Shown one piece after another: positions 21,501 to 56,000 of a stretch of DNA of 64,000 nucleotides (positions are counted from its first letter, which is position 1; every line of letters begins with the position of its first letter). Origin of the DNA: Chrysoperla carnea (taxonomy: Eukaryota > Arthropoda > Insecta > Neuroptera > Chrysopidae). The stretch spans positions 69,212,368 through 69,276,367 of the forward strand of contig NC_058337.1 of the NCBI RefSeq assembly GCF_905475395.1, read 5' to 3'. The notes beneath the pieces are model-generated. The model was not told the DNA's origin and ran no database searches. It saw only the letters and a program-made list of their open reading frames with translations. A program made the position numbers and the translations under genes.

Positions 21501-24500
21501 TTTATGCATCAAATGTTTGGAAAGATGGAAGTGTAGCATGTTCGATGCAAGTTGCATCGGCAAAAATTTTAAGTGTCAAGTCAATTTGTGGCGTTGTTGG
21601 TTGCCTGAGACAATTGTACAACTACTGTGCTTGTGATTCCTTGGCTGATCTCAAAGATTTAGAATACTTGTTCGTGTAAATAGTAGAGCCATGCATTTAT
21701 AGCAGAGACGACGTGAACTAAAATGGTTCCTGCATGTAGCCAATCTCCTTAGTAAGTTAGGGGTCTTGGTAATTCTGGATATTATCTAAGCAGTGAAAAA
21801 TGGAAATTTTTAAGTTTATAATGAACCAGGTCCGTAAGAGGCATCCGCCACCGCCGCATAAGAAATAGAGACGCAAAACAAAACTTATGTTTTATACGTA
21901 AAACAAAAAGTTAGAAAAGAATCATGTTAAAGGCGCTCATTAATTTACATAGTCATTTTATTTTTTTGATAAATTTGATCCGATCTTATTAGCATTTTTT
22001 TTGAAACCCAATAATTTTGGGTGGCTCTTTTCAGCTGTGATGTCATTTTTTCACCAGCTATCGCTTAAATGCTTAATTCCGAAATCAGGACTCTACATTC
22101 TTGAAACCTATTAGAGCTAGGTTAATTTTGATAACAAATTTGAAAAGTATGACCCAAATTTAGTAGGATTACATACTTGGTTTATCAAAATTGGATAAAA
22201 TTTGAATGTGATAGAGCAAACTTAAATTTTTTGGATTCTGATGACGTCATCAAGTTAAAAAATTTGATTTTTTTGATAGCACAGGCAAATTTGATCCGAT
22301 CTTATTAGAATTTTTTTTGAAACCCAATAATTTTGGGTCGCTCTTTTCAGCTGTGATGTCAATTTTTCGCCAGCTATCACTTAAATGCTTAATTCCGGGA
22401 CCAGGGCTCTACATTCTTGAAAGCAATTAGAGCTAGGTTAATTTTGATAACAAATTTGAAAAGTATGACCCAAATTTAGTAGGACTACATACTTGGTTTA
22501 TCAAAATTGGATAAAATTTGAATGTGATAGAGCAAAATTAAATTTTTTGGATTCTGATGACGTCATCAAGTTAAAAAATTTGATTTTTTTGATAGCACAG
22601 GCAAATTTCATCCGATCTTATTAGAATTTTTTTTGAAACCCAATAATTTTGGGTCGCTCTTTTCAGCTGTGATGTCAATTTTTCGCCAGCTATCACTTAA
22701 ATGCTTAATTCCGGGACCAGGGCTCTACATTCTTGAAAGCAATTAGAGCTAGGTTAATTTTGATAACAAATTTGAAAAGTATGACCCAAATTTAGTAGGA
22801 CTACATACTTGGTTTATCAAAATTGGATAAAATTTGAATGTGATAGAGCAAAATTAAATTTTTTGGATTCTGATGACGTCATCAAGTTAAAAAATTTGAT
22901 TTTTTTGATAACACAGGCAAATTTGATCCGATCTTATTAGAATTTTTTTTGAAACCCAATAATTTTGGGTGGTTCTTTTCAGCTGTGATGTCAATTTTTC
23001 GCCAGCTATCACTTAAATGCTTAATTCCGAGACCAGGACTCTACATTCTTGAAACCTATTAGAGCTAGGTTAATTTTGATAACAAATTTGAAGAGTATGA
23101 CCCAAATTTAGTAGGATTACATACTTGGTTCATCAAAATTGGATAAAATTTGAATGTGATAGAGCAAAATTAAATTTTTTGGATTCTGATGACGTCATCA
23201 AGTTAAAAAATTTGATTTTTTTGATAGCACAGGCAAATTTCATCCGATCTTATTAAAATTTTTTTTGAAACCCAATAATTTTGGGTCGCTCTTTTCAGCT
23301 GTGATGTCAATTTTTCGCCAGCTATAACTTAAATGCTTAATTCCGGGACCAGGGTTCTACATTCTTGAAAGCGATTAGAGCTAGGTTAATTTTGATAACA
23401 AATTTGAAAAGTATGACCCAAATTTAGTAGGATTACATACTTGGTTTTATCAAAATTGGATAAAATTTGAATGTGATAGAGCAAAATTAAATTTTTTGGA
23501 TTCTGATGACGTCATCAAGTTAAAAAATTTGATTTTTTTGATAGCACAGGCAAATTTGATCCGATCTTATTAGAATTTTTTTTTGAAACCCAATAATTTT
23601 GGGTCACTCTTTTCAGCTGTGATGTCAATTTTTCGCCAGCTATCAGTTAAATGCTTAATTCCGGGACCAGGGCTCTACATTCTTGAAAGCTATTAGAGCT
23701 AGGTTAATTTTGATAACAAATTTGAAAAGTATGACCCAAATTTAGTAGGATTACATACTTGGTTTGTCAAAATTGGATAAAATTTGAATGTGATAGAGCA
23801 AAATTAAATTTTTTGGATTCTGATGACGTCATCAAGTTAAAAAATTTGATTTTTTTGATAGCACAGGCAAATTTGATCCGATCTTATTTGAATTTTTTTT
23901 GAAACCCAATAATTTTGGGTCGCTCTTTTCAGCTGTGATAACAATTTTACGCCAGCTATCACTTAAATGCTTAATTCCGGGACCAGGGCTCTACATTCTT
24001 GAAAGCAATTAGAGCTAGGTTAATTTTGATAACAAATTTGAAAAGTATGACCCAAATTTAGTAGGACTACATACTTGGTTTATCAAAATTGGATAAAATT
24101 TGAATGTGATAGAGCAAAATTAAATTTTTTGGATTCTGATGACGTCATCAAGTTAAAAAATTTGATTTTTTGATAACACAGGCAAATTTGATCCGATCTT
24201 ATTAGAATTTTTTTTGAAACCCAATAATTTTGGGTGGACCTTTTCAGCTGTGATGTCAATTTTTCGCCAGCTATCACTTAAATGCTTAATTCCGGGACCA
24301 GGGCTCTACATTCTTGAAAGCAATTAGAGCTAGGTTAATTTTGATAACAAATTTGAAAAGTATGACCCAAATTTAGTAGGACTACATACTTGGTTTATCA
24401 AAATTGGATAAAATTTGAATGTGATAGAGCAAAATTAAATTTTTTGGATTCTGATGACGTCATCAAGTTAAAAAATTTGATTTTTTGATAACACAGGCAA

Positions 24501-25672
24501 ATTTGATCCGATCTTATTAGAATTTTTTTTGAAACCCAATAATTTTGGGTGGACCTTTTCAGCTGTGATGTCAATTTTTCGCCAGCTATCACTTAAATGC
24601 TTAATTCCGAGACCAGGACTCTACATTCTTGAAATTATTAGAGCTAGGTTAATTTTGATCACAAATTTGAAAATTATGACCCAAATTTAGTAGGATTACA
24701 TACTTGGTTTATCAAAATTGCATAAATTAGGATGTGATAGAGCATTAATCAGATCGTAATGCAAAATACCCCAGTATCATTTAGGAGGGTAATGAGTTCC
24801 TTGTTTTGCTCGGAAACGTAGAGAGAAGCAATACTTTTATTTGATACTCTATCATTTGAATAAATTTAAAAAGTTTATCAATTAAATGTACAGACTCTGT
24901 AAGGTAAAATGACACGATTATGGCGTCTCTCCCCCATTTTGCCTTTACTCTTATATTAAATACTATCAGTATACGAATTTTCATCAAAATCATTAGAGCC
25001 GACCCCGATATATATAAGGCGCAAGCTAAATACTTGCCACCGGCGCTATATACCCTCGTTACGGCCTTGTTATGAGCAATCTGAAAACCGTGAACCTTTC
25101 GTAGCAAATACGACCGCTTTAGAAATTTCTATCCATCTTTAATTTTGGTAACGATACTTGATACCATTGCCCAAATAATATCTAAAGTCTCTAAAGTAAA
25201 AAAATCTGACAACATTAAAATTCGAACTTTATGAAACTCACATTCGCAAATCTTACATGATTATCCATTGAATATCCAGATTTTTCCTTACCATTCAGAA
25301 TTTCTTTTTCAGAAACAATTTTTTTTTTAAATACATATTTTTACAGGAAATATAACATTGAATGAAGCTCATGTGGTCGAAGGTGAAGTGTTCGTCTATA
25401 ATTTGGGAACGATGTATTTCATTGATAAGTTACTGTTTCCTCTTCCGAATACTCTACAAGAAGTGATTCCCACATCTTCAACAACTATTACAACAATGAT
25501 AACAAGTACGAGGAAACAGAGTACAGAAACAATTCCAGAAGAATTAGATGTAGAAGTTGGTACATCCACGGATTTACTATTAGAAGAAAGTACAGATGAT
25601 GGCCAATCAAATACATATCAAGTACCATTCATTTTATCGAATAAACTTAATATTAGTAATCCAATCAAATAA
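548..25672 (+). CDS. Secreted fasciclin-domain (FAS1) protein, five exons
   Basis: Exons are 548-830, 18359-18883, 20200-20409, 20669-21154 and 25347-25672. All four introns are phase 1 with GT-AG ends, and the exons join in frame to 609 codons plus a stop. The N-terminus has a hydrophobic signal-like segment (a second Met at residue 26 could also be the start). Three FAS1 repeats follow, at about residues 75-215, 230-372 and 402-532. Each has the family's central motif: FTIFAPINSA, YTVLVPCDSAF and YTFFVPIDTAF. The tail (about 533-609) is rich in Thr, Ser and acidic residues, with no terminal hydrophobic segment, so I infer a secreted rather than GPI-anchored protein. FAS1 proteins (fasciclin-1, midline fasciclin, TGFBI/periostin) act in cell adhesion and extracellular matrix. 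A poly(A) signal AATAAA lies at 25719-25724. The orthology to a named fasciclin is not settled, and the 17.5-kb first intron is inferred from phase and domain continuity. Confidence 0.85.
1341..1746 (+). repeat. Dispersed ~400-bp repeat, copy 1
   Basis: This copy matches 54147-54551 in the same orientation over about 400 bp with scattered substitutions and small indels. Shared landmarks are GATGCCAGCG near the left, a doubled ATCCATACAATTATATA near the right, and CCATGGAAACGCCTCC close to the right end. It has no coding capacity and no obvious terminal inverted repeats. Related sequences of about 140 bp flank this copy on both sides (about 1205-1345 and 1755-1895), which suggests that it sits inside an older repeat. 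Confidence 0.7.
3955..3976. repeat. GC-rich hairpin in AT-rich DNA
   Basis: TTCGGCGCCG, a 2-base spacer and CGGTGCCGAA form a near-perfect inverted repeat with one mismatch per arm. Its base composition contrasts sharply with the surrounding AT-rich intron. It may be the terminal hairpin of an unidentified mobile element. No function can be assigned. Confidence 0.6.
4760..5665. repeat. Fold-back element of about 0.9 kb
   Basis: The sequence at about 4770-4890 is repeated in inverted orientation at about 5545-5660. Shared landmarks are TTAGCCAT, AAGAAGAGTT, CGTTCTTAT and TATAAAACAAAGAG. The arms are about 120 bp and clearly diverged, so the insertion is not recent. The interior holds no coding region I recognise. 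The family and target duplication are not determined. Confidence 0.6.
8635..9375. repeat. Fold-back element with ~300-bp inverted arms
   Basis: The left arm (about 8635-8935) pairs with the right arm (about 9050-9375) at roughly 75-80% identity by eye. Outer landmarks are CTCAACCTACCGGGCCAG on the left and CTGGCCTGATAGGTTGAAG on the right. Inner landmarks are the inverted TAACTTTTTGCCGCTAGAA and CCATTTCTGAGATGATTTTT. The core has three copies, in both orientations, of a GC-rich module centred on ACTCGGGGGTTTTCGGGGTC. There is no transposase gene, so this is a non-autonomous fold-back element. The ORF at 8929-9129 lies inside the palindrome and is not a gene. Confidence 0.85.
11475..11639 (-). 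pseudogene. hAT transposase C-terminal remnant
   Basis: On the minus strand a 54-codon open stretch ends in a stop and contains SAERSFSKLKLIKNYLRST, the signature of the hAT dimerisation region near the transposase C-terminus. In intact members the motif is normally followed by a conserved Glu-Arg-Leu and Leu-Ser-Ile segment, which is missing here. Everything upstream of the dimerisation region is also absent. This is a dead fragment of a plain DNA transposon inside the FAS1 first intron. Confidence 0.8.
11650..11730 (-). mobile_element. hAT element terminal region
   Basis: Reading the minus strand from 11730, the sequence starts CAGTGACGGTTTCAGGTGTG and continues through a GC-rich stretch with GGCCACCGCACAGGGCC. 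This resembles the CAGTG-type terminus of hAT elements. It abuts the transposase remnant at 11475-11639 in the same orientation, so both are probably what remains of one internally deleted copy. I found no matching opposite terminus, so the other end is lost or diverged. Confidence 0.6.
12694..12712 (+). repeat. Short CATA microsatellite
   Basis: Tandem CATA/ACAT tetranucleotides form a short microsatellite inside the first FAS1 intron. It is a marker only, with no functional implication. Confidence 0.7.
13230..13765. repeat. Second fold-back element with GC-rich core modules
   Basis: Inverted arms run from about 13230-13370 and 13610-13765. Shared landmarks are CATTCGATTCGTTA, AGCGTCAAG, CACAATTCGGTTAATAGCGA and AAACTTGTTACT. 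The core contains several copies, in both orientations, of a module built on TTACTCGGGGGTTTT followed by a GATC- or GGTCGCTGA-like segment. The same module occurs in the fold-back at 8635-9375, although the outer arms of the two elements differ. There is no coding capacity. Confidence 0.8.
14540..14860 (+). mobile_element. Mobile-element tail with CGGA run and terminal hairpin
   Basis: The block contains four tandem GGAC units (14707-14726), followed by AACTAATTAGGTGATTTTAT. It ends in a near-perfect inverted repeat at 14827-14859: TATACCTTGCATAT, a 5-base loop, then ATATGCATGGTATA. The pattern of GGAC repeats before a conserved AT-rich segment and a terminal hairpin looks like the 3' part of an interspersed insect repeat. 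The left boundary and class are uncertain. Confidence 0.5.
21212..21720 (+). pseudogene. Truncated Jockey-like LINE fragment
   Basis: Translation of 21252-21500 gives VYIPKSDPNYSDAKDFRTMS followed by LISFLFKTFDKLI. This matches the start of the reverse transcriptase domain of Jockey-clade non-LTR elements. A second frame (21482-21679) gives LVYASNVW and VASAKILS, then a cysteine-rich segment, which resembles the region downstream of that domain. The central reverse transcriptase motifs, including the catalytic YxDD, are missing, so the copy is internally deleted and frame-shifted. It lies 58 bp after the donor of FAS1 exon 4, just before the satellite array. Confidence 0.75.
21971..24745 (+). 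repeat. Satellite array, 316-bp unit, ~8.8 copies
   Basis: Units start at 21971, 22287, 22603, 22919, 23235, 23552, 23869, 24184 and 24499, giving spacings of 315-317 bp. The last unit is truncated near 24745. Each unit starts at AAATTTGATCCGATC, or AAATTTCATCCGATC in some copies, and then runs through ACCCAATAATTTTGGGT, CAGCTGTGAT and TAGAGCTAGGTTAATTTTGA. The eight complete units end with the palindrome TGATGACGTCATCA. Units differ by only a few percent. The array lies in the last intron of the FAS1 gene. The identical ORFs at 24083-24277 and 24398-24592 are repeat copies, not genes. Confidence 0.97.
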
Positions 25673-40602: not shown

Positions 40603-41367
40603 TTACACAGAATGTAAAACACAATTAGTATTCACAGGTAGAAAAGGCTGCGCCTTCTCTAAAATTGCCTCTTCCAAATAATGTTTTAAAGGCATAGGTA
40701 AATATAATTTATCTATATCCTGTTTATTATTTATGCGTTTAATAATTTCCGCTCGACATCTATCTTGCAAATTCACAAAATCACGACGCATACAACACAG
40801 AGTCATTTCAGTTTTCGCCGCTGTAGAACATATCATTGGAAATAATGGTTCCCGCACTTCATGCAAATCTTTGAATGCAACGCCCAAACATTTACCATCT
40901 TTATAATACGTTAAAGTACCTTCAACTCCATCAAATAATATTCCAATCAGCGTTGCACGATTTTCTTTGAACGGTTTTATAAAATGTTTCCATCGTCCTC
41001 CATGCCACAGCAACCCTTTATGTGACAAACCCCAACTATGTTTATCTTCCCCTAATAAATTTACAAATGAATCGGCATGTAACCGTGCTTTTCTTGTACC
41101 GATACCAAACATCATACTGGTTCCAAACACACGTTGCGATACTTTCAACTCCCAGTAATATCGACCGTTATTTAATACTTTGGTACCTCTTACCCCAGCT
41201 GTTCCACTACTCCATGTTGGATGGAAATGTGCAATACGTAATCCAGGACCATATAAACGAGCTTCTGGACTTCGTTCACGGCGATTCCATGTCCACTGGT
41301 CATCACAACCACCTTTTAAAGGTTTTGGATCGCAGCTTATTCTGTATGCGTAATTTTCGTCAAACAT
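40603..41367 (-). CDS. SPSB3: SPRY domain-containing SOCS box protein 3
   Basis: A single exon encodes 254 residues from ATG 41367-41365. A B30.2/SPRY domain spans about residues 25-190, with LRIAHFHPTWSSGTAGVRGT, RYYWELKVSQRVFGTSMMFG, SWGLSHKGLLWH and GILFDGVEGTLTYYKDGKCL. The C-terminus (about 205-254) has CRAEIIKRINNKQDIDKLYL and then PMPLKHYLEEAI, matching the SOCS-box end through which SPSB proteins recruit Elongin B/C and a Cullin E3 ligase. Human SPSB3 (about 355 residues) has a longer N-terminus. Known substrates of the vertebrate protein include SNAIL and nuclear cGAS; whether these apply here is unknown. It is divergent from Dr1 across about 500 bp. The plus-strand ORFs at 40967-41158 and 41022-41417 are shadows. 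Confidence 0.93.
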   Translation of the reverse strand: MFDENYAYRISCDPKPLKGGCDDQWTWNRRERSPEARLYGPGLRIAHFHPTWSSGTAGVRGTKVLNNGRYYWELKVSQRVFGTSMMFGIGTRKARLHADSFVNLLGEDKHSWGLSHKGLLWHGGRWKHFIKPFKENRATLIGILFDGVEGTLTYYKDGKCLGVAFKDLHEVREPLFPMICSTAAKTEMTLCCMRRDFVNLQDRCRAEIIKRINNKQDIDKLYLPMPLKHYLEEAILEKAQPFLPVNTNCVLHSV

Positions 41368-41870
41368 TGTTGTTGCTTATTTTACGTCATTTTATTAATT
41401 TATCATTAAAAAAATAATTCCTTAAATTAAACAAGTAACACAGTTAAAATATCGCATTTTTCAATAGATACAGACTCATTTAAATACATTTTAAATGTGT
41501 TTCAAGAAATCAATAATATACAAGATTGTAGATTATGCACATTTAGAGACAACCCCTTTTTTAAATTTAGGGTTGTTTTTAAATCTTTCCCGCCACTAAT
41601 AATTTTCATTTCCATTTTAAATATTAATTAAAAATTATAATAAAATTTGTTTGAAATCAAATACTATTATATTTTTACCTTTAATATTTATAGTAAATTC
41701 AAATTAAATTAAATTTGCTTTAATAAGCTTTTAAAAATAGATTTGTTTAGGAATTTTTTTTTTTTAAGCGATGTCACTGTCGCTAAGTTTGACATTTGTC
41801 AGATAATGTTTTCAGTTTTTACATTAAAGGTTATGTTTTCAAAAGAAGTAATTTCTAAAGAATTTTCGAT
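41368..41870. promoter_or_regulatory. Shared divergent promoter region, SPSB3 and Dr1
   Basis: Only 503 bp separate the two start codons on opposite strands, so this interval should hold both promoters. It is AT-rich. I see no canonical TATA box in a decisive position. A run of T residues lies at about 41755-41766. Shared regulation of the two genes is possible but only inferred from spacing. Confidence 0.55.
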
Positions 41871-42662
41871 ATGAGTAACTCATCAACGGGTGTTAGTGGA
41901 GCTGGTTTAGGTACGACCGAAGATGATGAACTTACTTTACCCCGAGCTAGTATTAATAAAATGATAAAAGAACTTGTACCTACAGTTCGAGTTGCAAATG
42001 AAGCTCGTGAATTAATTTTGAATTGTTGTACTGAGTTCATACATTTATTAAGCTCCGAAGCAAATGATATTTGTAATCAACATAATAAGAAAACAATTAA
42101 CGCCGAACATGTCCTACAAGGTATATGTTAAGTGAATAGAGAGGTCATTATAAAGATTTACGAATTTTTAGCAAATGAATCGTTAGAAAATTACCCTGAT
42201 TTTGAGTAACGTAATAGCTGTAATGAAATTAATGGATGTTAAAATACTCAGGCGCTTTATTAAAACACATTTTCTAGTTTTAGTATTGCTCTTGGTGTAG
42301 TTCAACCTATTTAAATTCGTATTGCTTTATGTGGACCTGCATAACTAGAACAAAAATTGAGAACTAATTAACTTATTTCAGCTCTAGAACGGTTAGGTTT
42401 TGGAGATTACCAAACAGAAGCTGAAGCGGTATTAAGAGATTGTAAAGCTGTTGCTGCTAAGCGTAGACGACAAAGTACACGATTAGAAAACTTAGGAATA
42501 CCTGAAGAAGAATTATTGAGACAACAACAAGAGTTATTTGCTAAGGCACGAGAACAACAGGCTTGGGCTGAACAACAACAATGGCAACAGTTACAGGCTG
42601 CAGCTCAGCAAGCACAAGCGTCGTCATTACCTTCCTCAAACGATGATGAAGACTATTCATAG
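41871..42662 (+). CDS. Dr1: Dr1 / NC2-beta transcription repressor
   Basis: Exons are 41871-42120 and 42382-42662 (phase 1 intron, GT-AG), giving 176 residues, the same as human DR1. The histone fold covers about residues 17-95, with LPRASINKMIKELVPTVRVA, ANEARELILNCCTEFIHLL, SSEANDICNQHNKKTINAEH and VLQALERLGFGDY. A basic linker follows (AVAAKRRRQSTRLENLGIPE), then a Gln/Ala-rich region (QQQELFAKAREQQAW onward) and an acidic end. Dr1 pairs with DRAP1 (NC2-alpha) to form NC2, which clamps TBP on promoter DNA and blocks TFIIA/TFIIB. NC2 also activates some DPE promoters in Drosophila, and Dr1 is a subunit of the ATAC acetyltransferase complex. A poly(A) signal AATAAA is at 42994-42999. Confidence 0.97.
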
Positions 42663-43985
42663 TTTTAAAAATATTTATTATTATAATTTACATAAAAATA
42701 TGAATGGTATTGTAAACGACAGATCTTTGCGTCTATTTCATGCTAAAAATAACTTTTATGGCCGTAATAATTTTTCCAACATTGATGCTAATAAAACTAA
42801 CTAATCGATATGCATTGTTTTAAAAAGTGACCTTGCACGATTTTTTGTATTTGTTTCTTTTTAAATTATCATTTCGGGATGAATTATTCAATTATTGTAT
42901 TTTTTTGTATGAAAACTGTGAAGTATTAAACCTTTTCTTTTGTATGTTAAATTATTGTGATTTTATTTTGTATCTTATGATATAAATTATTCGAATAAAA
43001 GTTTATTTTCCATATTTCTATGAAAATTCTCTATCCCAAATAATACAATTTTAGTAATCATAAATTCTAATCATTTTTTATGATATACGACTTTATTCAC
43101 TCTTTGACATGTAGATATCTACTCGGCTGCAAGGAGCTGAAGGATTTTATACTCAATCACATTATTATCAGTTTCATAACGTCTAGGTTTCAGTGAACAA
43201 ACCATAAATTCGGTTCAATATTTTAAGCATCAAACGATCGAATAGAACCAAAGTTTAGCATATTGTTTACGAAGCTTCTTGAAACATTATTATTTTTTAC
43301 ATATTGGGATAGGATTATTGTAGCAAAAGCTTAAAAATACGTAGTCTTTCACTCAAGTGTTTGACCTACATTATATAGGATTTATTTAGAAGGTTTAATT
43401 AAGTCTTCAAATAAATAAAAATTCCAGTAAATTTTGCAAACGAATTAATAAATCAAAAATTGGAACCCCACTAAAACTTATATTTTACAGTTATTATTTA
43501 TTTTATCTGTAAAAGTATTCAACTTATAGGAAATAGACTCCAATTTAATATTATTTTAGAACAAAGATAGATAAATTAGGTTATATAACAATAAAAAGAG
43601 ATAAACACCCATACAAGAGTGGTTTCGAAACTCCGCACATGCGATCCTTTTAATTTTAATTTAACCTTCACAAAATATTTTTTTACCGATATATTCTCTG
43701 ATATCTTTTTTAAATTTTGTATAATCTGTAGTGCTATCAACTAGTTTCAAACCACATTTTGATTAAAATATTCGTAATGAAGGAATGCATGTACAGTTAA
43801 TTAAGGAAATGTAATTAATTCCTTTATATTTTATTTTAGTCTCATAATCTCGTGTCAAACTGTTTTTGTACAATTATATGATTTAAAGACTTTAAACTTG
43901 CTAAAAATTTATATTTTAATAATTATTTAATTTACCAATTAGTTTTTATATTTAAAGTTTAAAAAACGTGTTTGTCAAAGTTGAA
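42663..43985. other. Intergenic region, Dr1 to the TFIIIC110 gene
   Basis: The Dr1 3' UTR ends near 43020. The rest is AT-rich sequence with no supported gene or repeat. A perfect B-box at 43986-43996, listed separately, follows immediately. Confidence 0.5.
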
Positions 43986-43996
43986 GGTTCAAGTCC
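43986..43996 (+). promoter_or_regulatory. TFIIIC B-box match upstream of GTF3C2
   Basis: GGTTCAAGTCC matches the Pol III internal-promoter B-box consensus GGTTCRANTCC at every position. It ends 55 bp before the GTF3C2-like start codon and is followed by a run of nine to ten T residues from 44010, which resembles a Pol III terminator. Only three of five T-stem pairs could form and I see no A-box at the normal spacing upstream, so this is not an intact tRNA gene. Whether it binds TFIIIC is inference. Confidence 0.5.
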
Positions 43997-44051
43997 TAAC
44001 CATGTAAGAATTTTTTTTTAAAATTTGTTTTATATTTTAGATATGTAAAAT

Positions 44052-47000
44052 ATGGATTCTAAAAGTGAAAATTCAAAAAATAAGAAAACAAGGGTCGATG
44101 AAAATAAATCAACGGTATCCAAGATAAAAGTTGTCCCTTTGGAAAAATTAAGAAATCCGAAAAATAGTAAGTAGTTTTGGAATATGTTTATTATCTTTGG
44201 ATTTAAATTTTGAAAATATTTCCAGGTACATTGCCTTCTCCTACAAGGCATAGTAGTAGATCGAATGCGGGTAATAAATTAAATTCTATTTTATCTGCTA
44301 CACACAAATTGAGAAAAGAGAAAATAGAGTCCACTAAAACACCTGAAACGAAATCTAAAACACCAGAAACGAAAGCTAAAACGCCAGAAACGAGAACTAA
44401 AACACCTGGAACGGGGACGAAAGCTAAAATATCAGAAACGAAGGCTAAAATACCGGAAAATAATTCACTAAATTCAGGAAAGACGAATATACAATTTATT
44501 AAAAAAGAACCTAATGAAGATCATACACCTGTAGAAAGTCTTAGAAGCATAATAAAACTGGAACCCCTAAGCGAAAATACAGAAAATGAATCAAATGTAG
44601 ATACTACGGGGAGAAAACGAAAACGAAATGCTACAACGGAATCTAATAATAGCATTGAAAATGAACCTAGACGTAAAAGAAAAATTGATAACATAATAAA
44701 GAAGAAATCGGTTACATTTGCGATTGAAACGACAGAAATTTTAAGTAAAAATGATAATCGAAGAGAAGAATCAAATGTGAACAGTGCGATCACTCCGTAC
44801 AAAACAAACATATCGCCAATGTCGAAAAAAAAGAAGAGAAATACAAAGCAGGTAGAAGTTGAAGATACGCCTTGTGAACAAATGTACGTGCATGATATGT
44901 TGGAGTTAAATCTTGGTGAAAATAGTGGAGATCAGCAACTAACAAGTCATACGGATACCGATGAGGATTACGTTATAAATGAAATAAAACCTTTAAAAAA
45001 AGTTAAGAAAAAAGGACGAAAGGCTAAAATAGAAGGTAAAGTTGAGATTTACATAGTATGATATTTAGAAAAGTACAGAAAAATTTGAAAATAATTATAA
45101 TTTTAATAACACTAAATCAGTCGAAAACATTATAATAAATACTTAAGTAATTTTTAGTTTTTATATACAATTAAAGATCATAATTTTTTCTATCAGAAAT
45201 ATGAGTTCTGGAAATTTGTCTTACAATTAGATATTCTAGTTATTATAACCGAACAGAAACAGTTAAACTGACATTATATATTCATAAATTTCAAATTTCA
45301 GATGACGACGTACTATCATTTGACGAAGAAACTGGACAAGAATCAAGTAATATTAGTTTGGATATTAATTTTGAAATTGAAGTCGGTGCGGAGAAAAAGG
45401 GTAAACGTGGCCGGAAACCTGCATCTTTTCAAAAAGAAGACACTTTACAACCACCATTATACTATAAAATGAAAGATCGACCTGGACGGGGTGTACGATG
45501 TATCAAATGTAACACCTTAGTCCCAGAAGCGTTTTGGTTGAGACATAATTGTCAAATGCATAACAATCTAGCTTGGAGAGAGGGTGAAACACCTGTGGTA
45601 ATAAAAATTTTCTGCTGCGAACTTAAGAATGTTCTATTAATTTTAAAATATTTGTAGGATTTATCTAGTCGGGAGCAAGTATTTCGACTATGGAATCAAG
45701 TAATTAAAAGTCAGTTGCCTTTAAAATGTGGACGTTGTGGCGATAAAAAGCTTTCGGCTATTGGGTTTTATTCTCACGTTAAATTGTGTGGTAAAGATTT
45801 AAATGTATGTATAAAACACGTTTTCTAGAAGGATAGCTAGTTAATTTCTTACCGTCATTCATAGCTACAATAATATGTTTTCAATTGGCGAATTCATTTC
45901 ATTATATAACTTTTTCAATGCGATGATCGGGATTGGTGTTGCTACTTGTTCTAAATTTCTTACTTAAAATTAGCATACTTAAGTATTAATAATATTTATA
46001 TACATATGCATCTGAGTAAAAATATTTCGCACCAGAGTATAGGATGAAACGAAATGGCGTGAAATACGCACTTTTCTCTGTGTAGTGCTGTAGTTTTTAT
46101 TTTTAGTAACCAGTACATTATAACGTAGAATGTGTAAAGTACATTTTGGTTGAAAAGATCGTTTAATTCAAAATTTGTCTGTTCTTCCTTCAAAACAAGG
46201 TAAAAACACTTTTTTGGTTCGTCGAATTTCCATTATAAAAAATTTAAGAAGTTTATCTCTTTTTTGTTTGATGCATATTAAATATTCATAAAAATTCCTT
46301 TTTCAGGAGATTGAATCACAGCGAACAAGTTGTAAATTATGTGGGGCACGTTTCTTGGTTGTAAGCTTAAACGCACATATGCAGAATGTCCATTATAAAA
46401 ATAAAGAAAAAGAGGATAATAACCATATTACCACAGATAATATAATCGACAACGCAATAAAACGACAAGCTGCTAACAAGTGAGTAATTCAATTAAAAAA
46501 TCCTTGTCCTTATTAAACTTGCGTGTTCAGTTAGCTCTGCATTTGATTGGTACAGTGTGTTAATAGCTCTTGTTTATGCCTAGCAATTATAATCGATAAC
46601 GATTGCAATAAAATTTTGATAAATATTTTAGTAAATTTAGCAAATTGACTAAAAAAGAACTTATAAAAGAAAAAATTAAATTAATGTATTTCTTTGCTTA
46701 GAAAACGATTACAAGGTACGTTACAATGAACTCTGAATTTGGATAGATATAGCTTTGCGTCGAAAAGGATTGGAGAATGGTAGAAGGGGGGGGGGTGTAA
46801 TGGCATTCAAGCTATGAAAATTTTCATTTTTGGTGTCAGAAGTCTGTCATGATTTGTCCATTATCAAGGAATTCATTCAGTATAAGTTTTGCATTGGAAC
46901 GAAAATCAACAACTTTGAAAGAGACATCGCATAGCGCCTGTGCATTGTCGGTTTAATCATATGGGCGATTCAAATAAAAGTTCGGTAATCAGGCTGTATG

Positions 47001-50000
47001 CATACTAATTTATTGACTGTATAATTTGTTCTTGTACAATTGTTGCCACAATTTTAATGAAAAATTCGAAAGAATTGTAGTATTTTTGTAGTATTTAATC
47101 ATTTTTGTTTTTAAACATGATGTGCTGTTTGAAAATATTGTTTATAGAGCCGACAATGTTAAAGGGTTTACGTTGTTTTATGTCTGAGCTACAAATGACT
47201 GTTAAATCATTCATATTGATATTGCCGAATCTCCTACTGTAAGAGCTTGATTGGGCCGACCATATAGTAATAATGAAAAAATCCAATAATACTTAAAGAC
47301 TTTAAATTCAATGTTTCAAAATTATTTATACTCATCTTTAAAATTTAAAAACCAAACAAAAAATGATATATTTTCTTTACAATTTTTCAGAGCGTTGAAA
47401 ATTTTTAAAACTTTAGACAAAGAAACAGATAATATTACCGTAAGTATGATCACATTTATCGAACTTTATGATGTTATCGGAATGCTTTTGAATAATAAAA
47501 ATGAACGTATAATTAGAAAGAAAAAGAGCATTTTAAATTAACATTTTTTCGAGAGAAATAATTTTAGCAGAAATTCAATGCGAAAATAAAAGTTTCACTC
47601 TCTTATGAGTATTTTAAACTGAATTCAAAAAGCACATTTCAAATAAAATATGTTGGTGTTTTGAAAAGGAACAACTTTTTAATCTTAAGTATTCTTCTAC
47701 TTTTACCAGTAACGAGTCCGAGATGACTTTTCAAACAAAAGATGCTCGTGTTTTTATAAGGAACAACATTCTAATTTAAAGTGTTGCTTTTACCAGTAAC
47801 GAGTTCGAGCTGACTTTTAGATGATCCTGGTGATGAAGGTCAAATTCAAGATGACTGAAAGATATCTCCCTTTAAGCCTAACATTTTTGATTTGAAAAGG
47901 TTTTTTGTATTTTAGTTAACCCACAAGATTTTTCTTATTATCGATTAAAACGGTTCATATTCAGGATGGATATTTACCTTTATTACAAATACAGAAAATT
48001 AATTCCCTTTTGAGGGTCTGCCCTTGCTTAGTTTTGCTTATAACTTTTGAATTTGATTTTTAATAACTAGATTTAAATTTTTATAGGATATGTACATGGA
48101 TAATAAACGCGGTGCTAAAGCACCAAGATATTATATAAATGTATGGAAAAAACAAATTGCAAATGAAAAAGGTATGGCAAAATGTTTTTCACCGATTTGT
48201 GATTATCAAACGAAAATTCTTGATGAAATCTTAAAACACTACGATGAATGTAAATTTGCACCACAAAAAGTGTTTACATGTAAAAAATGTAATTACGAAA
48301 GTGCGCAAGAAGATGAAATTGTTTCGCATATAAAAACAGCACATCCGTGTGAAGAAAAACCCCGTGTGAAAAAAGAGATAGATAAAGAATTCATTGTAGA
48401 AGAGCATGCTGATAATGAAGAACAAGCTAATGATAAAATGCTTAATCAAGATCTAGAAATGTTACGATTAAATGAAAGATATATAAATTCACCGAAAATT
48501 CAAAGTAAAATATTTGTTTTTATTTGATTAGTGTTAAATTTTTATTATAGTATACAGATTACAACCAAGTATTTATTAAACATAGACTTTTTTATAACGT
48601 TGAAGTACTTGTACGAGATTCGGTAGTAAATCTAACCTACCTACTTCTCTCATAGCGTGAAGGTGGGGATGATTTCATTTGAAAGACAGGGAGTACTCTT
48701 CATTTTTTCTAATAATCGTCTCACCATGAAGAATTCATCTCAGGGTGTTGTTGAGAATGCCCAGAGAAGCTGTATTTTCGCATACAGATTCCTTGTTCGT
48801 GATGAAATCATATTTTCACTTCTTCCGGATATGTTGATCCAGGAAATAATCGATTGCTTTCTAGGAACAATAGAGTGTTCTTTCCTAGTCCAACAAATGC
48901 CAGTTGCTGAAAATAAATGATGTTACGAAATGAACAAAACTTAAGAGACGGTTTTTCAAATGAGATTGTCCACTATCTTGTCCGATCACCCTTTCTCATT
49001 TGAATACAAGTACAAGAAATAAAATACGTATTTTATTTCGTATTAATGAAAAAGATAAGACAATTTATTTGTAAAAATTATTTTTATTTATTATAAATCC
49101 AGAAAGGTAAATCGGAACGGAATTCCTAAAATTGAAAATTAATTTTGGTACATATACTCAAATTCATTGCTATAAATTTTATTTACTGTCTAATTTTTTA
49201 GCGCTACATGGACATTCTGTCCTGTATGACGAGAAAGAATGCGGAAATATGTCTGACTTGTTATTTTAATTACTATTATGATCATTTTCTGTATTCATTG
49301 TGCGTACCAGGATTCTGAGGCTATTTTGCAAATAATTTTTATTCTGACGAAAAATTATTTGACTCAAGAATCAGTAATACTTTACAATATTCAAGTTTTG
49401 CATTGTAGTCTGTATATATATGTCAAGTGAGCTTGATTCTATAATTTTTTTCATTTGCATCTTTTTTCAGAACAATGCTATAAATTTGACTTTCTATTGC
49501 AATCTAAAGAAGCAACATTACCAATGTATTCATTTTCTGGTATTATTTTATGGACAAGACAATTGTAAGTAACTTAAAAAAATTTATCTTTAGATAGGAT
49601 TGGGAACATACATTAATTTAGAAAGTAATAGATTGGAAAAACGAACTTGAATATCTGTTAGAAAATAGTTCAATTCAAATCGATTAAAAATTTTCACTCG
49701 TAATGAATAGGAATGATTCGGAAAATAAATTTAAGTATACTTTACATTCCAATTTAATCCCATTCAAATATTGAAGCGAAATGAATGCGAATGTATAGGG
49801 AAAAAATTCTAATTATGTATTTTTTCGATTCAAAGTCAATCAAATAATTTAGCGCCGAGGGCATTTTATTTTCCAGCTTATTTTATATGGTCCTTGCATT
49901 TACTACAAGCCCATACAAATGCTCGTGGGAAAAAATTTGTGACGAAAATAAGTAGTTGAAATACGAAGATGCGCGAATGTTCCCGAGCGTGCACATTTGA

Positions 50001-53000
50001 GCCCTAATTGTATTGACGATTCGTGATCAGTGTGTACACTGTACATAGCAGGTGTTGACAGTTATTGCGCACTTGGGTATAATTGCGTATGGTCGTATTT
50101 GATCTAACTACTTATTTTCGCCCCCAGATGTTTTATTACGAAATTTGGCTGACTAGCGGTCCATGTACAGGAATTCTCAACCTTTTTTTGTTACCGCACA
50201 CTTTTAACCATTATATAATTTTTACTATATTTCTAAAATTGGGCGGCGCACAAAAGTGCCGCAGTACAGTGGTTGAGAATCACTGTACTTGAAAGTCAAT
50301 GGGTCTTTGTCAATTTGTTTGTTTGAATTTGATCAATTAGACTTATGGGCTATGGCGTTTGTGGTTCTATCATGGCGGCGGTGCCATGTCACTCATAGCC
50401 TTTCTCATAGCTCATTTTGATATCGCCAGGTCAGGAATCTCCTATATTACGTAGGGGATATATTTTCGGAAGAACCAGAGTCTATTGGTTAGAATGATGT
50501 TTCATACACATTGTTAAAGACTTCATAATCTAAACTAACTCATAAACTAAAAACTCTAAAATTATGTTACATTTAAATTGGGTTGATAAAAAAAACATCG
50601 GCTTTGGACGTAAAGTGTTCACTATTTTTTCCGTCCAAAATGTTTACATTACTTGAAATAACTTACTACAAACTAAAGTAAGAAGACTTAAAAAGAAGAT
50701 TCATGAATTTTACATGTTTTAGCCGAGAATTGCATTACTCAAACTTGTTGTTTACGGAATATCTAAAAACAAAATGGTTGCCTGTTGATAAATATCAAAT
50801 TGAAAAATATTTACCCGAAGTCAAAAAGTCAATACATACATCACAAATATTAATGAGACAACAAATTCCAGATATTCGTACATATGAACATCGATGGAAA
50901 GAATACAATTTATTTGAGACAGACGTTACATCGAATATTGCAACAATATTTTGTGGTGGACCTGTATGTAGTATGGCATGGGTGCCGATGTTGTCATCCT
51001 TAGATAAAGAGCAATATTTAGCTGTATTTTGTAAACCAAATATGAAAGATTCTTTTAAACTTGGTTACTCATATACAGGAGCTGGTTTAATTCAGATTTG
51101 GAATTTTGGTGTTTTAATTAACAAGTAAGGAACAATTCGGTCTCTCAAAAATCAATTTTTAATATTATTAATTTGTAAAGGTCTACATGTGAAACAACAC
51201 CTAAGCTGGCATTGGGAATTGCACACGATTATGGTATAATTTGGCATATGGAATGGTGTCCATCAGGATGTTATCAAGAAAATGAACGGCTTGGTTTACT
51301 AGCGTTAGCAACGTCCACGGGATTTGTTTATATTATTTCAGTCCCTTTCCCGAATCAATTAAGGTGGGTGGAAAACTATTATTTTTGAACACAGTTTAGT
51401 CCAAGTCTTGAGTTCCATTTATACCACTTCCCGTTATCAAGTTGAAATTTAATAAACTGCAGAACTTTGTGAAGTCAAATTTATCAGGCTCATGTTGGCT
51501 TACTTTTTGTTTTCAAAATAAAATTTTGATTTCATACAAATGTTTTAACATTGTTTGTGCCACATTTTTACAAATGTTTTAATGTCCATTGCTCACACGG
51601 GGATGCGTAATACAATCTACGACGAAATGATCCAATTGATATTTTCGACAACTTTGAAGAAAGCAATTAAGGCAACAAATATACAAGATTTTCAAATTAT
51701 TTTTTAATTTTGAATCCGGGAAAAAGTAACAATTTTAGCATGCCGTTGTGATTGATAAATAATTAAAACATTAATTTTTTTATTTTTAATATATTTTTAC
51801 AATGATTTCAGTCCAAAAAGTAAATGAATTTGAAAACGCATAATTAAAAATATATATCAACATTTATCCTCATAAAGCATTTTTGACTAAAAATGGCGTC
51901 GTTGCCTTGATACATTTTTGAGGAATCTGGGGTTAGTTACAGAGGCGAAAAAATTTTTTAATTGAAAAAAAGCGTATAAATGTTAAAAATATTTTTAAAA
52001 GCAAGGATATATTTATTTTAAAAATATTAAACAGACTTCAGTCGATTTGAGCTAATGGAAAACTCCCAAAATTAGGTCATTTTTCATATTTTACTAAATT
52101 TTGCTTGTATTATATTTCTGGGTTGATATTATTGTATAAGTTTAGTCTGTGCCTTGCATCAAACTTATATAAATAATGTATTATATATGTATTATATAAA
52201 AAAGAAGATTTGAAAAAAATCTTCTCCACTGGATATAAAAATTTAGTAAACCTTGTTACTGTTTTTTCACATGATACAAAGATGATTGAAAATAATTTTT
52301 TGTCTTTCTTATTTTAGTGCTACTAATACTAATTTACCAGTTTACAAAACTAAACCAATATATCAATTAAAACTTCAAGATAAGACTTCGAAATTATTAG
52401 GTGATACTGAAATGCAAGTTACAAAATTAAAATGGAGTAAACAATCGGGGCATGATGTTTTAATCGCTGGATATTCAAATGGAATGGTTGCAATATGGAA
52501 TTTAAAAAATACATCACCATTATTACACGAAATTAAAGATGAGTGTATACATTTATTGCCATATGTGTGTTTTCAAGCACATGCTTCAGCTGTGTTAGGT
52601 ATAGAAAATTTCATGTTCAAGCGTTTATTTATTTTTCATTTTATTTATTTTTTTGTATAAAACAGGGAAGGGTATAGGCAAAGTGCGGTTTGGGCTAAAG
52701 ACATGCCGCATAGCTTTAATTTTGTAATAGACCTAATATAAAATATATTAGAAACATTTGTCACAGGTAACGAAAGAACGTTTTCAAATCAATTTGATGA
52801 AACCAATTCTTCTTAAATTGGATAATTTTTGCGAATAATTTGTATTCTTTGTATAAAATTCTATGTTTCTTAAATTTATAACTTATATATTGCATAATAA
52901 TGGGGTTTAACCTCCGTATCTCTGACATATACGCCTATAACAGAGGCCACCCACATCATTATTTGTGAATCTTTATTTATTTAATTACAAATTATATTAG

Positions 53001-56000
53001 AGCCTAAAGTGGCCGAGCGGTCTAAGGCATTAGTTATAGACCGTTAGTTTACTTAGACTTAGGTTGCGGGTTCGAATCCAGGCAGCGGCAGTGTGAACAA
53101 TTATAATGGGAGGGCAGAATTGATCACATTGTCGTCGCTTGGATAAGAACGTAGTAACCGACTCCACCCACATCAAAAATGTAATTGTAAATATAATTTT
53201 TAAATAAAGAGTCACAAATAATGATGTGGGTGGCCTCTGTTATAGGCGTATATGTCAGAGAAACGGAGGTTAAACCCCATTATTATTTATTACTTATATA
53301 TTCGTCTGTTTTCATAAGTTTTCTCTCAAAATTTTGTTACCAAGATCCGTTCTTTACTGTACTAAGCCTAAATCCACCCCTGGTTTAGAGAATAGAAATA
53401 GGAATAAACACTTTACACTTTGAATTTTTAAGTTGTCGATTTACCAAATACTAATGATGTACGATGGCTATTAACTGCATCCCATGATCAACTCACCAAA
53501 TTTTGGGATTTAAATGATACGCGATATCCAATTGGCGACTATAAACGTGGTATTGTGACCGATGGATATTGGTGTCCCCATTGGAATTGTGCTATTGTAT
53601 GCTTTGATGATGTTTTAATGCAATGTAAGGATTTATTTTTAATTATTTTTAAATATTCAATTTTTTTTCCAAACAATAAGATATGATAAGATTATAAGCT
53701 GTGATAAAAATTGGCTTATTTTGCTGATTACTAAAATTTCCATTTAAAAAAATATTAATCCGGAAATTTAAAATTTTATGTTTTCCTCTTACAAAGTAGT
53801 ACGCGGTCTCATGTTTTATTATGTAAAAAGTTATTAGCAGAAACGTTATTGTCATATGATACAAGTGAAACTATTTTATTTTGTAAACAGTGGAATATCC
53901 AGGAAAACGGTAAAATTGGAATTCTGGATTATTACGAACTATGTTTTCATAATTAATAACACAACACTTTCGATTCGATCGTTTTTACTCATTTTATTTA
54001 CTCATTTTAAATCTTTATTGAATTCCACTTGTAACATATGACAATGACGTTTCTGCTAGCCACTTTTTAGGCTAATCAACCCTCATTTTTCTGAAATAAA
54101 ACACGAGATGGCGCAAAGGTCACCCGCCAAAAATACTTTACTAGTGTATGTGTATTCGTTGTATGCGTAGTCATGATACAATAAAAGCGATGCCAGCGTT
54201 TCCAGTGAAAAGTTTTGGCGTGAAAAGAGGCTGTTATGACTAGTTTTCAATTCTTTACATGTTAATGTTACAGTAAATGTCAAATTAAAATTATTGAAAA
54301 ACACTAATTAATTAAACTTAATGCATTAAAAGTTGTGAAAATAAGAAATCAAATTGCGCAAATATTATTTTTCAAATGTAAATTATTATAATTATTTATT
54401 TAAATTTGTGAGACAATATTATTAAATTTTCAATGTTAGTCATAAATGCAATCCATACAATTATATATGCATCCATACAATTCTATAATTAAATTAGAGT
54501 ATCGTTACCATGGAAACGCCTCCAATAAAACTCATACACGGTGCGAATACGATATATCAAAATCAATTCATGCATCAAATTTCATTTCAAGAAGACAAAA
54601 TTGTGGTCGCTAGAGTTAGCTAGAGTGTGTACATTTTACAGGCTCATATGTCTATATACCATAATTACTGCTTTTTGACCAAATAATTGACTTTTATCCA
54701 ATAGGTTTAAAAGTACAATATACGTCCTAAATCTTCCCACGGAGAGAAATGTTTTTTTTTTAAGATTAACAAAATAATTATGCATAAATTTGATTTCCAA
54801 AAATGTTACCAATTTCTCACTAAAATATGCTAAAAAAGGACGAATCTCGTAATGTTCAATAATCCTTAGAAGTTATTTTGATATAAAAAATACTGACTTG
54901 TATGATGACACAAAATATTAAAATATTTTTTTTTTGATTATCCAAATGAACCCTTCCCCCATGCATGCAAAATCCCCCTTACTTAAACTTTTTTGGGTTT
55001 ACTTTTGTTAGTTATATGTTTTTTTTTTTTTTTTTTTTTTTTTAATCATTAAGATTTAATTAAACCAATGTATTGGGCTAATTCTAAAATGTTTCAAGCT
55101 GAATAATAAATGTAATTTTATTTTGTAGCTTTAACCGTTACAACTTTAATATCATGCCGTGATTTTGGCTATAAACCAGTACCATTACTTCGAAACAATT
55201 CACCATGTAAATGTTTAGCTGTTAATGAATGGATGAATGGAATTGCTCAAGGGTCGGTTGCTGGTGAATGGCAATTAACATTTCCAACACAAATGTTTTA
55301 TGGTTTAGAAAATGAAAAAAATTTAAGGCATAGACGTTCAGTAAGTGTATGGATTTTAAATTTTTTTTCGAAATAGGCTTATGGTTTTTATTTTTAGCTA
55401 GGTGGATTTACTGAATATCTTGATCGTACTAAAACACCCGAAGAACTAATAAAATATGATGAAAAGAAAAAGAAATTAGCAAAAACAGATTTGCAAGAGT
55501 TTTCAAAATTATCTGATGATGATATTGAAGTTTTACCATTTCTTTATGAAGATGCTGTGGAAAAATATGGCGTTGTATTCTGCGATTTTGATTTGGTATG
55601 TTTTATTTTCAATGTATTAAGATTTTTGTAAATGTGATGTAGGCAATTAATTCGAAAAATAACTTTTATCGTGCAAAATGTTTAAAGAAACGTTGTTAGA
55701 TCAAAGAAGCATGTCCGAGTGATGTTGATTATAGCCCTTATCTTCAGCATCATTTTGAATTGACGAGCACCAATTTTTTGTTCATAAATGGAAGGATAAA
55801 ACGTATATATAAATTTTATAATAAAAACGGTTTCAATTTTTATTTTTTCATATAAAAGGTATATACAAATTTTAGTCTTATCTCTTTCCTAATGAAGTTG
55901 TATTTCTACAATTATGTAATTATGTGCTTATTTACACTTTTTTGCATGTTCCTCCTGTTATTACTTATATTTTCTGAAACGTAAATCTTCAATTTATTTT

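Follow-up and report, generated by a model that had tools for sequence, protein, structure and literature searches.

Our analysis showed that the DNA immediately upstream of a GTF3C2/TFIIIC110-like gene of the lacewing contains a perfect B-box match, GGTTCAAGTCC, and that this match is real and isolated: 11 bp of consensus sequence in A+T-rich, seemingly single-copy DNA. The leading explanation, which we put at about even odds, is that it arose by chance and has no dedicated function; this grading, like those given for the other readings below, is a judgement and was not computed.

The B-box match and the gene beside it

The site was found in a 64-kb window, by which we mean the whole stretch of DNA that was analysed. 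The features that surround it are as follows.

Minus strand: SPRY and SOCS-box gene (Pfam), on the opposite strand
From 41871, plus strand: open frame of a histone-fold gene (PF00808) of Dr1/NC2-beta type, the same-strand neighbor that precedes GTF3C2
43986..43996, plus strand: perfect B-box match GGTTCAAGTCC, with flanks for which no second genomic copy was found
44002..44007, plus strand: mini uORF ATGTAA (start-stop), 5 nt past the B-box; a uORF only if transcribed as leader
44011..44019, plus strand: T9 run, starting 14 nt past the B-box
44043..44048, plus strand: second mini uORF ATGTAA (start-stop), like the first within 50 bp upstream of the GTF3C2 start codon
44052..44166, plus strand: coding exon 1 of the GTF3C2/TFIIIC110-like gene, with an in-phase splice to exon 2
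44226..45035, plus strand: coding exon 2 of the GTF3C2-like gene, with an in-phase splice from exon 1
50703..51128, plus strand: open frame with a WD-region exon of the GTF3C2-like gene, matching human TFIIIC110 when joined

The sequence-only reading had described a B-box that agrees with GGTTCRANTCC throughout, ends 55 bp before a start codon and is followed by a T-run, and our analysis bears this out in full. The match at 43986-43996 on the plus strand fits the consensus at every position, and 55 bases (43997-44051) lie between its end and the ATG at 44052-44054, which is a credible start because exon 1 joins exon 2 in phase. The T9 run at 44011-44019 may represent a terminator of the Pol III type, a polypyrimidine tract or a chance run; runs of nine or more Ts beginning no more than 25 nt downstream are found for only 0.6% of window positions, and the local DNA is A+T-richer than the window. 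The B-box lies in the 1.4-kb interval between the Dr1-like gene and GTF3C2, which has a G+C content of 24%, and it may belong to the GTF3C2 promoter. An acceptor-like TTTTAG ends at 44040, and if this acceptor were used, the B-box would fall in a 5′ UTR intron.

The same reading was right to call the downstream gene TFIIIC110-like. A peptide from 50703..51128 and part of the next frame (from 51179) matched the human GTF3C2/TFIIIC110 chain PDB 8cli_C with E=5.6e-21, and for another GTF3C2-like exon 8cli_C was the best of 76 matches (E=1.4e-10), the remainder listed being mostly other WD-repeat proteins. Three GTF3C2 peptides were also tried against Pfam, and none scored above the cut-off. The PF00808 neighbor is Dr1-like, and Dr1 is a repressor of TBP. 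It stands back to back with the SPRY/SOCS-box gene at 40603-42660, the former on the plus strand and the latter on the minus strand.

The gene and the window also contain several tandem structures. Within exon 2 of GTF3C2, 21-bp tandem repeats at 44333-44459 encode a series of TPETKAK-like heptads, and a 92-bp tandem duplication lies at 47637-47818 between exon-like open frames of the gene. Elsewhere in the window, a 316-bp unit forms a tandem array of 8.8 copies with 96% matches (21971-24744).

Chance expectation and the genome-wide census

To gain insight into how often such a match should occur, we considered the window, the position and the genome separately. The 64-kb window contains two perfect GGTTCRANTCC matches, compared with a mean of 0.10 in shuffled sequences, and at least two were present in only 1 of 100 shuffles. 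As one of the two (at 53069) is inside a SINE, the non-repeat count is one against 0.10 expected, which is unremarkable for a whole 64-kb window. Only the position beside GTF3C2 is unusual, and it was a priori unlikely. For the 66 bp that run from position 43986 up to the start codon, Markov models predict 0.00006-0.0001 perfect matches on either strand, and the real B-box density of the genome gives 0.001; the corresponding values per 200 bp are 0.0002-0.0003 (Markov models and reversed-pattern control) and 0.003.

We then turned to the genome (559 Mb in 337 contigs), in which GGTTCRANTCC occurs 8636 times, compared with 499 times for the reversed pattern. In the loci that were read, this surplus consists of tRNA-derived SINEs of several families together with some tRNA genes. 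The exact sequence GGTTCAAGTCC occurs 232 times, compared with 63 for its reversed control. A census of 91 of these 232 copies, all taken from the first 100 listed and lying on contigs C1 and C2, was performed with self-matches and BLAST rows at 100% identity over more than 100 bases skipped. In this sample, 58 copies show similarity to a SINE profile or to another of the copies retrieved; the other 33, among them the window site, are unique, and this is an upper figure because one of them (L020) appears tRNA-like by eye. Scaled to all 232 copies, the unique class would number about 84, while the reversed control gives 63 and Markov models 37-76. The unique copies are therefore near the chance number genome-wide, and the share that exceeds chance can be about half or fewer. 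Part of this excess is probably decayed tRNA-like DNA, as L020 illustrates. In the same genome, (TTAGG)8 was counted 192 times (overlapping counts) compared with 0 for its reversed control, as suits an arthropod; of the 100 places listed, on C1, C2 and C3, none was at a contig start, and none was at the ends of C1 or C2.

With unique copies of GGTTCAAGTCC near chance numbers, the presence of the match does not in itself attest to binding. Taken singly, a unique perfect B-box counts as weak evidence, which the position next to GTF3C2 strengthens. The chance reading follows from these numbers together with the lack of an A-box, a T-arm and any recognizable SINE or tRNA at the site (see below). 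If it is correct, the location beside a TFIIIC gene would be a coincidence that was picked out for its meaning. What speaks against chance, besides the unlikely position and the rarity of such a T-run downstream, is that the yeast counterpart of this very gene has a B-box site in its own promoter. In open chromatin, a B-box that arose by chance may still be bound, given the nanomolar affinity with which the tau-B module binds the B-box according to PMC12409998.

A possible extra-TFIIIC site at a TFIIIC gene

A less probable but still substantial possibility is that the match is a promoter-proximal extra-TFIIIC (ETC) site that is bound by TFIIIC. The perfect consensus, the flanks with no second copy and the 55 bp to the GTF3C2 ATG are all consistent with this, as is the low positional chance of 0.0002-0.003 per 200 bp. 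The site has the B-box motif of an ETC locus (GGTTCAAGTCC, 43986-43996) and, as judged by ARAGORN and Rfam, is located outside a functional tRNA gene. The near-chance number of unique 11-mer copies argues against this reading, as do the other TFIIIC genes, although with little force. Profile searches of the genome for PF04182 (B-block) and PF09734 (Tau95) each gave one place above the cut-off, and from the families alone these are likely the genes for the TFIIIC220 and Tau95 counterparts; PF04182 also matches in 4 of 14 prokaryote control genomes, and the PF09734 match contains one stop. No perfect or 1-mismatch B-box was found in the 3.2 kb around each matching exon, but these loci may miss the promoters, and this control consequently says little.

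The closest precedent is that of budding yeast, in which TFIIIC is reported to repress TFC6 through the ETC6 site; the title of a 2011 paper by Kleinschmidt describes a Pol II promoter as autoregulated by TFIIIC. Like ETC6, the lacewing site is a B-box that closely precedes the gene for the tau91/TFIIIC110 subunit, with no surrounding tRNA gene. The sequence-only reading had appealed to this precedent, and PMC4228148 agrees, in that it locates ETC6 in the promoter of TFC6 with a citation of Kleinschmidt 2011. The difference is that ETC6 is reported to be bound and to affect its gene (PMC4228148), whereas the lacewing site is known from sequence alone. PMC3622031 likewise describes TFIIIC as repressing Pol II transcription at one gene. 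In yeast, a mutation of the TFC6 promoter at a point upstream of ETC6 moves the start site and lowers the protein about 17-fold, according to PMC4228148, and a similar coupling between start site and mini uORFs at GTF3C2 is conceivable, although speculative.

Sites of this kind also exist in animals, as PMC4226948 for Drosophila and PMC6950938 for C. elegans indicate. The former describes thousands of ETC loci, 348 of them (14.5%) with a B-box motif, and the latter reports that 504 of 1029 TFIIIC sites have little or no Pol III. The site described here resembles the ETC loci known from Drosophila, C. elegans and mammals in being a B-box outside a tRNA gene and perhaps close to a Pol II promoter (PMC4226948, PMC12409998). 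It differs in how it was recognized, as those loci are defined by TFIIIC ChIP without Pol III and this one by its letters. Our literature search, which was judged by titles and the beginnings of abstracts, recognized no case of TFIIIC autoregulation in animals.

If the match is an ETC site, TFIIIC would bind it through tau-B, as has been shown for B-boxes generally, and TFIIIC110 itself is reported to contact DNA downstream of the B-box (PMC12409998 and PMC11811891). With neither an A-box nor TFIIIB, no recruitment of Pol III and no transcription by it would be expected, and the best A-box, which has 3 mismatches, also makes the use of Pol III at the site less likely. TFIIIC bound so near the ATG could obstruct or move Pol II initiation on GTF3C2, and abundant TFIIIC would then lead to less mRNA of its own subunit, by extension from yeast ETC6. 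The ATGTAA mini uORFs downstream might even make a shift in start site matter for translation, which is speculative. The whole of this scheme is in our view unlikely: it combines an ETC site at the animal's own TFIIIC subunit gene, repression or repositioning of Pol II by TFIIIC at the GTF3C2 start in TFC6-like autoregulation, and start choice tuned against the mini uORFs.

Repeat origin, leader signals and implications

It is unlikely that the site descends from an old tRNA-derived SINE or tRNA pseudogene of which the B-box and T-run were kept while the rest decayed. In favor of this idea, the genome is rich in tRNA-derived SINEs, to judge from the 8636 perfect B-boxes compared with 499 for the control, and one such element is present in the window itself.

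53008..53291, plus strand: tRNA-derived SINE of family D (HMM E=3.1e-72), between exon-like frames of the GTF3C2-like gene
53069-53079, plus strand: second perfect B-box of the window, GGTTCGAATCC, inside the family-D SINE

This SINE is accompanied by fragments at 52893-52990. Its B-box is a possible second TFIIIC site in the GTF3C2 gene and would confound occupancy studies.

In SINE families A-D, as at the site, a T-run follows the B-box at a comparable distance, and this 14-nt spacing, which resembles that of repeat-borne copies, is the sole feature that favors a decayed element. In the census, a T-run of six or more within 25 nt was present in 37 of the 58 repeat-borne copies and in 2 of the 33 unique ones, including the window site. 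Runs of nine or more were found in 4/58 and 2/33, respectively, so the length of the T-run is not a pointer to a repeat. An A-box with no more than one mismatch accompanied 32 of the 58 repeat-borne copies compared with 5 of the 33 unique copies, and two or three of the three further T-stem pairs formed in 49/58 and 11/33.

Unlike the SINEs, the window site showed no similarity to other copies outside the 11-mer in our searches and has no A-box or T-arm, and its flanks were found only once. The best A-box 25-65 nt upstream has 3 mismatches, and only one of the three further T-stem pairs forms. Across the whole 100 bp upstream, the best A-box has 2 mismatches and lies 13-14 nt before the B-box, and an equally good one occurs in 928 of 1703 sampled 100-bp windows. 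ARAGORN detected no tRNA at the site, and Rfam found none in 43600-44400 at E up to 10, where it gave only four unrelated matches; the whole window had no Rfam match at the gathering score. A 116-bp query matched only itself in the genome in a search that skips very common words, and the site showed no likeness to 90 other sites or 57 further loci at E 0.001. The 16-mer GGTTCAAGTCCTAACC, allowing up to 2 mismatches, has 69 genomic copies including the window site compared with 81 for its control, which indicates that no longer element has been multiplied.

SINE profiles gave a similar result. The first-look candidates numbered 1324, 1883 and 2779 for families A, B and D, with 40 scored per family. 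At the site, the profiles of families A and D reached only E=110, and that of family C, built on only 3 sequences, gave nothing. The family B profile, built on only 6 sequences, covered the 11-mer plus a single base (E=8.9), while its top match in the window (E=3.9) was the other B-box at 53069. A true copy in the window was available only for the D profile, and those of A, B and C were validated by the sites they recognized in the census. We therefore rejected a recognizable SINE or tRNA, as the 116-bp search, the four profiles, the census, the 16-mer, ARAGORN and Rfam show nothing beyond the 11-mer. The sequence-only reading had offered a decayed tRNA-SINE remnant as its alternative and had proposed looking for a recognizable SINE shared with other loci; no such SINE was found, and the remnant reading, which has little support from these searches, is weakened.

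Some of the repeats are of interest in their own right. ARAGORN predicted a tRNA in 4 of 38 B-box loci, of which two were tRNA-Gly and two were in or beside family-B elements. The tRNA-like elements of family B are frequently arranged in inverted orientation, two copies being separated by tens of bases (e.g., loci L024 and L029), and such pairs resemble a foldback element whose arm is tRNA-like.

It is very unlikely that the T-run and TTTTAG (ending at 44040) form the 3′ splice site of a 5′ UTR intron, with the B-box an incidental part of the intron or leader or a site for another Pol II factor: the pyrimidine-rich TTTGTTTTATATTTTAG a little before the ATG and a donor-like GTAAGA at 44004 are compatible with splicing, but a 44004-44040 donor-acceptor pair would define an intron of 37 nt, which we judge to be too short.

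If the B-box match is not functional, it serves as a warning: where SINE B-boxes number in the thousands and chance ones form a background, little is proved by a perfect B-box that happens to adjoin a suggestive gene. If it is bound and functional, feedback control of the Pol III machinery would act on one and the same subunit gene in yeast and in an animal. Such feedback would have been conserved for about a billion years or would have evolved twice, and it would offer a simple means of studying how the level of TFIIIC is set.
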